64,000 bases of DNA from Afipia sp. (GTDB lineage Bacteria > Pseudomonadota > Alphaproteobacteria > Rhizobiales > Xanthobacteraceae). Of this stretch, positions 9,538 to 28,588 are shown one piece after another (position 1 is the stretch's first letter; each line of letters starts with the position of its first letter). Where the stretch lies: NCBI GenBank assembly GCA_024508675.1, contig JANINQ010000003.1:186001-250000 (forward strand). The letters run 5' to 3'. The position numbers and the translations under genes are program-made. The notes beneath the pieces are model-generated. The model did not search any database, was not told the origin of the DNA, and worked only from the letters and a program-made list of their open reading frames with translations.

Positions 9538-9543
9538 CATCTG

Positions 9544-25672: not shown

Positions 25673-25765
25673 CCGAGTTTGATGTTCCAAATCGTGCTCA
25701 TTCGCGGTATGCCCGCCGTCGACTGTCAGCTTATTTGCCGACTGTCTGGATAAGAGTGGGCTCCC

Positions 25766-27199: not shown

Positions 27200-27211
27200 C
27201 ACGAGTAACGG

Positions 27212-27303
27212 CGTCATGCCCGGGCCTGTCCCGGGCATCCACGTCTTGTTGAGATTACAATTTGAGTGAAGACGTGGATGGCCGGAACAAGTCCGGCCAT
27301 GAC
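27212..27303. repeat. Palindromic repeat unit without cargo (serS-surE)
   Basis: Arms at 27212-27247 and 27269-27303 form an inverted repeat around a 21-base centre. Each arm folds on itself (ATGCCCGGG/CCCGGGCAT; ATGGCCGG/CCGGCCAT). The arms share the CCACGTCTT boundary with the GIY-YIG unit at 28170-28543, so this looks like an empty relative of it. Confidence 0.8.
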
Positions 27304-27347
27304 AACAAAAAGAACATAGCCGAGACAAAGAAAAACAAGGTTAGAGC

Positions 27348-28115: not shown

Positions 28116-28169
28116 GGCGTTTCAGGCCTTGCGTCTATTCTTGATACGGCAGTTAAGCGGCTTGTAGTT

Positions 28170-28543
28170 CGTCATGGCCGGGCTTGTCCCGGCCATCTAC
28201 GTCTTTGATGATCGGAATATGGCGGGCGGGTACGTTTACTTTCTGACGAATAGGCCAAATGGCGTCCTATATGTCGGCGTCACGAACGATCTTGCTCGTC
28301 GCGTATTTGAGCATCGCTCTGGAGCGGTCGAAGGTTTTACCAAACAGCACGGAATAAAGCGCCTCGTTTACTTTGAGGTTTTCGACGATATCCGAGCCGC
28401 TATTCAGCGCGAGCACAATATCAAACATTGGCCGCGCGCCTGGAAAGTCAGGAAGATCGTTATCGATAACCCCGACTGGAACGATCTTTATGAAGCCATC
28501 GTCTGATAAGACGTGGATGGCCGGGACAAGCCCGGCCATGACG
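28170..28543. mobile_element. Inverted-repeat unit carrying a GIY-YIG nuclease gene
   Basis: The arms 28170-28205 and 28508-28543 are 36 bases each and match at 35 of 36 positions as inverted repeats. Each arm is also a hairpin (ATGGCCGGG/CCCGGCCAT). The unit contains just one gene, whose stop ends one base before the right arm. Two similar but empty palindromes occur nearby at 27212-27303 and, less alike, at 25550-25672. The mobile nature is inferred from structure; no target-site duplication was established. Confidence 0.6.
28219..28506 (+). CDS. Small GIY-YIG nuclease
   Basis: A 95-aa single-domain GIY-YIG endonuclease-like protein. The signature is present as YVYFLTNRPNGVLYVGVTNDLARRVFEHR, with the conserved Arg in LARRV and a Glu in the FEVFDDIRAAIQREHNIKHW region. 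The ATG at 28219 begins the domain. An upstream in-frame ATG at 28174 would add 15 residues starting MAGLVPAI, which are only a translation of the repeat arm. Small members of this class (UPF0213/YhbQ-like) have unclear cellular roles; here it is boxed by inverted repeats, which suggests a role in repeat maintenance or spread. Confidence 0.85.
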   Translation: MAGGYVYFLTNRPNGVLYVGVTNDLARRVFEHRSGAVEGFTKQHGIKRLVYFEVFDDIRAAIQREHNIKHWPRAWKVRKIVIDNPDWNDLYEAIV

Positions 28544-28588
28544 ACGGTAAGTTCGCGTCGTATCTCAATCTCAGATGAATGACCGTAA

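Follow-up and report, generated by a model that had tools for sequence, protein, structure and literature searches.

A GIY-YIG nuclease gene boxed by inverted CGTC-tagged REPs in Afipia sp. and its relatives: a candidate transposase-free unit

A small gene encoding a GIY-YIG nuclease was found boxed between two inverted copies of a CGTC-tagged REP in a window of 64 000 nucleotides (the whole stretch of DNA analysed here) on contig C3 of an Afipia sp. genome (4.4 Mb in 22 contigs). This REP-gene-REP arrangement is probably that of a spreading unit: the predicted nuclease would recognize and cut the hairpin of its own CGTC REP, and the unit and gene-less REP pairs would spread into gene junctions without a transposase. 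The proposal draws on the box itself, its recurrence in other genomes, the pairing of nuclease subfamily with REP type, sites occupied in one genome and empty in another, purifying selection on the gene and the lack of a detectable Y1 transposase in the window genome. From these we infer hairpin cleavage and a route of spreading.

Structure of the unit and identity of its arms

The features are listed below, with positions counted in the window. The arms were delimited by inverted-repeat alignment and single-stranded DNA folding.

27211 to 27304, no strand assigned: gene-less pair of the REP type of the unit's arms, tags outward (two hairpin positions)
28169 to 28205, + strand: left arm, a CGTC-tagged REP, with tag CGTC (28170-28173), stem ATGGCCGGG (28174-28182), loop CTTGT (28183-28187), second stem strand (28188-28196) and tail CTACGTCTT (28197-28205)
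28174 to 28218, + strand: in-frame stretch upstream of the gene (MAGLVPAIYV...), REP-coded, probably untranslated and a trap for annotation
28219 to 28506, + strand: gene for a 95-aa single-domain GIY-YIG nuclease, with likely start ATG at 28219 and stop TGA at 28504-28506
28508 to 28544, − strand: right arm, the left-arm REP inverted, with the CGTC tag (28540-28543) outward and the tail toward the gene

The two 37-nt arms, separated by 302 nt, form an inverted repeat in which 36 of 37 positions match (97% complementary), which extends the 35 of 36 matches given in the original prediction. In single-stranded DNA folding, both arms formed a 5-nt loop on a 9-bp stem, extended by a short outer helix (−13.3 and −14.0 kcal/mol), and the CGT of the tag paired with the ACG of the tail in the computed fold. 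None of 200 shuffled sequences folded as stably for either arm, in agreement with the hairpin that had been predicted in each. The gene had also been said to end one base before the right arm, and 1 base indeed separates the stop codon, which ends at 28506, from the arm, which starts at 28508. An ATG at 28174 was rejected as start: it coincides with the first base of the REP stem, and ATG 28219 is therefore the likelier start. Between 28174 and 28196 the REP reads MAGLVPAI(Y/H)V in one frame, and genes called from the 28174 ATG would gain a spurious N-terminus.

CGTC REPs are defined, in the 2013 survey by Di Nocera and co-workers (PMC3733652), by an unpaired CGTC at one end, a stem of 8-9 bp whose first two pairs are A/T, a loop of 4-5 nt and a CCA-like tail. 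They are described there as present in many copies, mostly in head-to-head pairs, with families recorded in Bradyrhizobium and Rhodopseudomonas. Both arms of the unit have the CGTC tag, the 9-bp stem beginning with AT and the 5-nt loop; the tail carries CCA in the right arm and CTA in the left arm. A stringent pattern ending in the CCACG tail gave 26 copies in the window genome and its reverse gave 0, and BLAST of the arm gave 106 matches, both strands of each palindrome being counted. A private terminal repeat was thus ruled out. Adjacent REPs less than 80 nt apart in the family loci were mostly head to head, with 9 tags-outward and 4 tags-inward pairs. The arms could have been read from the original prediction as new repeats; this is corrected here, as they are alike in tag, stem, loop, tail and pairing to the CGTC REPs that the survey describes. 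The difference lies in the gene: the survey associates no transposase gene with them (they 'apparently lack a dedicated transposase' and bear a minus in its Table 1; PMC3733652), whereas here they box a GIY-YIG gene.

The pair at 27211-27304, which has the layout of the gene unit without the gene, lies between a serS-like and a surE-like gene and is separated from the unit by one gene. Lone REPs belonging to two further types were seen at 9541 (+), ATTCCGGA.., and at 25674 (−), GTCCCGGC..CCATA, the latter resembling the arms of a paralogue (L010).

The protein

Read from the start at 28219, the protein scored 53.3 bits against the PF01541 GIY-YIG domain (cut-off 22.6); an NCBIfam search gave no model above cut-off. 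The conserved residues of the family (Y, Y-x-G, R, H and E) are present, and Y7, Y18, G20, R28, H32, E53, E65, K69, R73 and K76 were invariant in an alignment of 40 boxed-type sequences. We take the invariant Tyr, Tyr, Arg, His and Glu to be the catalytic residues expected of the GIY-YIG family. The AlphaFold2 model (mean pLDDT of 92) is a plain GIY-YIG fold with no second domain. In sequence and fold, the protein resembles the UPF0213 proteins (PDB 1zg2, 1ywl) and the GIY-YIG domains of UvrC and Slx1: sequence matches were obtained to 1zg2 (E 2.7e-10) and 1ywl (E 1.6e-7), and Foldseek returned 1zg2 (E 3e-4) with Slx1 next. UvrC and Slx1 are larger enzymes, with several domains or two subunits, and we know of no REP box for UPF0213, UvrC or Slx1. 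Median dN/dS was 0.11 over the 63 pairs with finite dS (of 125 examined), a rough estimate given that dS is high, but one that places the gene under purifying selection.

Besides UvrC, the window genome holds 5 free-standing GIY-YIG genes. Four of the five lie between inverted palindrome copies, with four different palindromes, and the fifth has a REP pair upstream only.

Recurrence of the box

The PF01541 profile was searched in 61 genomes of the family, and 140 non-UvrC matches, among those listed, were taken with their flanks. A box was defined as an inverted repeat joining the two flanks with a score of at least 18, and same-sized positions in the same loci served as controls. Among the matches listed, this score was reached at 85 of the 140 GIY-YIG genes and 31 of 1622 control positions, and a score of at least 22 at 76 of 140 and 2 of 1622, respectively. 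With a score of 35 at the window locus, a chance inverted repeat was ruled out. Three genes that were short or had an inner stop (L100, L109, L166) were left out of clustering, and the remaining 137 fell into 18 protein clusters. Boxes were found, among the matches listed, at 84 of 105 genes of clusters 6-18 (13 GIY-YIG subfamilies) and at 0 of 32 genes of clusters 1-5 (five other subfamilies). A later batch of 20 loci previously left out gave 14 boxes among 17 genes of the boxed kinds and none among 3 of the other kinds.

Outside the family, boxes were found at 14 of 19 loci in other families or orders of the class (controls 5/192) and at 10 of 20 loci in other classes of the phylum (controls 4/201); the flank of one locus (L308) was too short in this test. 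The profile matched at E 1e-15 in 81 of 299 genomes in a draw of the phylum. The GIY-YIG gene as the only protein of a REP-bounded unit, as originally described, is thus a build that recurs in the family and beyond. The original prediction would have been refuted by homologues found mostly without arms; for these subfamilies this is not so, the named relatives of cluster 13, the window's own (from Bradyrhizobium, Nitrobacter, Afipia, Rhodopseudomonas and others), being boxed in 72 of 80 cases (control 20/886).

Twenty-one of the 105 genes of boxed kinds fell below the box cut-off, and 4 of 18 cluster-13 genes had one arm only, by pattern. The L009/L051 gene has a 46-nt repeat box and yet a uniform score of 16, because the right arm overlaps the end of the frame. 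In another cluster-13 gene (L141, genome G051), the stop before the arm is lost and the frame runs through the REP to 107 aa.

Pairing of nuclease subfamily with REP type

Pairing was measured on the 84 boxed genes (protein score ratio at least 0.5, best arm score at least 20), each boxed gene being compared with each other genome holding at least 2 boxed genes. The closest protein in another genome carried the closest arm in 477 of 557 comparisons (86%). When arms were shuffled within genomes (500 permutations), the mean was 37.8% and the highest value 57.6%. Nuclease subfamily and REP type thus go together. Part of this pairing is plain linkage, since gene and arms travel as one block. That the nuclease may recognize the arms, already supposed in the original prediction, now has pairing evidence behind it.

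The arms of cluster 13 read CGTCATGGCCGGG..CCACGT, those of cluster 8 GTCGTCCC..CCATAA and those of cluster 16 ATTCCGGG..CCATAA or CCAGTA. Arm tails of cluster 14 are CCATC or CCCGA, and cluster 10 arms have a CTC tag and a CCAG tail. In clusters 13 and 14, the stem varies by compensated pairs, and loop, tag and tail are mostly kept: over 97 REP copies, with only copies pairing at 5 of 7 positions taken in, 671 of 679 stem-pair cells were complementary, and the variable positions showed GC, CG and TA pairs. Compensated stems with kept ends are the expected trace of hairpin recognition in which the ends are read as sequence.

These data bear on the reading of the locus as an ordinary small gene with terminator-like hairpins on either side. 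The arms are stable hairpins, and many right arms touch the stop codon (median stop-to-right-arm distance of 6 nt in the 84 boxed family genes, 24/84 within 1 nt). However, neighbouring genes in the family loci were boxed in only 12 of 559 cases, the repeats are genome-wide, arm sequence tracks the nuclease subfamily, and tags and tails are conserved despite compensated changes in the stems. We regard this reading as hardly credible.

Occupied and empty sites

The surE and response-regulator genes were adjacent in 29 of 29 genomes examined of the window's genus, and the unit lay between them in the window genome only (0/28 other congeners). Of the other 28 sites, 17 held 6-47 bp and 11 held other-type hairpin repeats (read by eye); the closest congener has a different REP pair there. 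In another genome of the genus (G057), a cluster-13 unit lies between ruvC and ruvA instead of at the surE site. The ruvC-ruvA junction was filled in 1 of 27 congeners and was a 4-nt gene overlap in 12 of 27, among them G061, whose RuvA protein is identical to that of G057. At murC-murB, in other genera, the unit was present in 6 of 30 genomes, and a gap of −4 to 6 nt was found in 10 of 30; one genus includes both an occupied (G051) and an empty (G015) site.

About 7 to 31 nt of unmatched DNA were found outside the arms at the ruvC-ruvA and murC-murB junctions. The original view of the unit as mobile holds in that relatives differ in whether a given site is occupied or empty, but the insertion is not cut to the arms. 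Nor was target duplication, then suggested as a mark to look for, seen at ruvC-ruvA and murC-murB in comparisons with relatives of about 86-92% identical DNA, which are not one strain. On these comparisons insertion of the unit is real, and its chemistry is not readable from relatives at this distance. Both flanks were shared by cluster-13 genes in 14 of 152 between-genome pairs, mostly at the murC-murB site, by the small clusters 1-3 in 10 of 13 and by the unboxed cluster 4 in 11 of 210. Very recent copies at two different places were not encountered; dS between the two copies in genome G060 is 0.53.

The inserts at the ruvC-ruvA (L156/L390, L391) and murC-murB (L447, L443) junctions differ from genome to genome, comprising units, other palindromes and extra genes, and both junctions have the look of insertion hot spots. 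In three genomes (L392, L399, L412) the ruvC-ruvA gap holds a different repeat family, CCCTCCCC.. with inverted GGGGAGGG...

REP copy number and presence of the gene

REP copies were counted as a partly independent check on the pairing. The median number of stringent type-13 REPs was 26 in 17 genomes that carry a cluster-13 gene, against 5 in 42 genomes without one (p = 0.0005). For type-16a REPs the median was 14 across 13 genomes carrying the gene, every one of which had copies, against 0 across 48 genomes without it (p = 0.0002); these p values ignore the relatedness of the genomes. The type-13 test excluded genomes G023 and G011, whose cluster-13 gene contains a stop. The type-16a gene was scored as present from the nearest cluster and arm, in part manually, 'without' meaning that no gene was found; a first gene set of 9 genomes (median 14 versus 0, p = 0.003) was incomplete and rose to 13 after 20 more loci had been added.

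The REP-gene tie is loose, not strict. At least 5 type-13 REPs were present in 22 of the 42 genomes where the cluster-13 gene was not found, one of which holds 117, and G025, a gene-bearing genome with a variant stem, had 0 copies of the stringent pattern. A total absence of any tie between arms and gene would have spoken against the original prediction; copies are in fact commoner with the gene, but REPs are also found where it is not. Inner stops were seen in 4 of the 20 late loci and in G023, so decay of the gene does occur. Relics left after gene loss, or movement by a related enzyme, would explain REPs without the gene. As a separate observation, G059 (Rhodopseudomonas-like by match to L334) holds 267 stringent type-13 copies, several times the number in any other gene-bearing genome searched.

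Proposed mechanism and a possible host function

The enzyme would bind the hairpin extruded in single-stranded DNA (on the lagging strand or during uptake), recognizing the stem by its structure but the tag, loop and tail by their sequence, and would cut beside the hairpin. Host repair would then copy the unit, or a gene-less pair, to another place. Gene-less tags-outward pairs would stand to the unit as REPINs stand to RAYTs, being its non-autonomous form. Because GIY-YIG enzymes cleave DNA by hydrolysis and do not ligate strands, a transposase-like reaction is unlikely, and the spreading step would have to be host repair, more like homing than transposition. Unlike a homing endonuclease gene, which sits within an intron or intein of its target, the gene itself lies between surE and the response-regulator gene.

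The Ssn enzymes, reportedly described in a 2025 paper, are GIY-YIG nucleases that in Neisseria cleave single-stranded DNA at a sequence present as repeats, and their numerous homologues are said to have sequences of their own; the Neisseria enzyme is said to modulate transformation. Ssn is like the window protein in being a single-domain GIY-YIG protein with a repeated REP-like sequence. The window system differs from this description in that the gene is boxed as a unit, sites are occupied or empty, and many subfamily-specific pairs coexist. By analogy, the nuclease could act as a gate for uptake or repair, cutting incoming or lagging-strand DNA at REPs and so controlling recombination or natural transformation; repeats and gene would then be maintained for this function, with the box as a by-product. 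Purifying selection fits a host function too, and arms resembling CGTCATTCCCGCG..CGGGAATCCAG occur at some boxed loci outside the class. The 2013 survey, moreover, equates Neisseria CGTC-1 elements with dRS3 (PMC3733652). Host function alone nevertheless leaves unexplained the gain of the gene at different junctions in close relatives and the several orthogonal nuclease-REP pairs per genome, and we consider this reading rather unlikely. A host-function gate and a spreading unit can be compatible in one enzyme.

Comparison with transposase-driven REPs

The spreading REP-gene-REP unit proposed here is akin to the RAYT/REPtron/REPIN system in its single small gene flanked by dispersed REPs, its gene-less inverted pairs and the several gene-REP pairs per genome. 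A RAYT/REPtron, in contrast, carries an HUH Y1 transposase (PF01797) and a GTAG tag, where the window unit has a GIY-YIG protein (PF01541), a CGTC tag and a genome without a Y1 match. The REP/RAYT-like build first suggested for the unit thus stands for the flanking of the gene by the genome's REP family, but not for the Y1 gene or the GTAG tag.

The GIY-YIG gene might instead be a passenger, caught between two REPs that are spread by another enzyme (a RAYT or an IS transposase). CGTC REPs do occur where no matching GIY-YIG gene was found, a Y1 domain match was present in 10 of 33 genomes searched, and GTAG REPs are known to be moved by RAYTs (PMC3733652). Against this, PF01797 had no match at E 0.001 in the window genome or in 11 of 16 cluster-13 gene-bearing genomes searched, and none of 15 Y1 loci had a CGTC-type hairpin within 500 nt, although several had other inverted repeats. 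RAYTs are therefore a poor alternative here, and Y1-driven mobility in the window genome was rejected. Capture also leaves unexplained that each of 13 subfamilies has a box of its own REP type and that five other GIY-YIG subfamilies are never boxed. We consider a passenger gene improbable.

Searches of open-licence literature found no paper joining GIY-YIG nucleases with REPs. The 2013 survey found no partner gene for CGTC REPs and left their maker or mover open (PMC3733652); the GIY-YIG nucleases fit that role, and a subfamily-matched nuclease makes the question testable. More tentatively, CGTC REPs may descend, as non-autonomous elements, from a large class of transposase-free mobile units, each made of one GIY-YIG nuclease gene between two of its own hairpins, that move by hairpin cutting and host repair, with several mutually blind lineages per genome. 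If so, the origin and spread of bacterial REPs would have a second explanation, independent of that by RAYTs. The proposed spreading would also mean that a gene can be dispersed by a hydrolytic nuclease together with host repair instead of by a transposase, and would give a ready set of nuclease-hairpin pairs with different predicted specificities.

Several of the family's Y1 transposase genes (L417-L431) lie between long inverted repeats that have no relation to CGTC REPs, like the TIRtrons described in the survey (PMC3733652).
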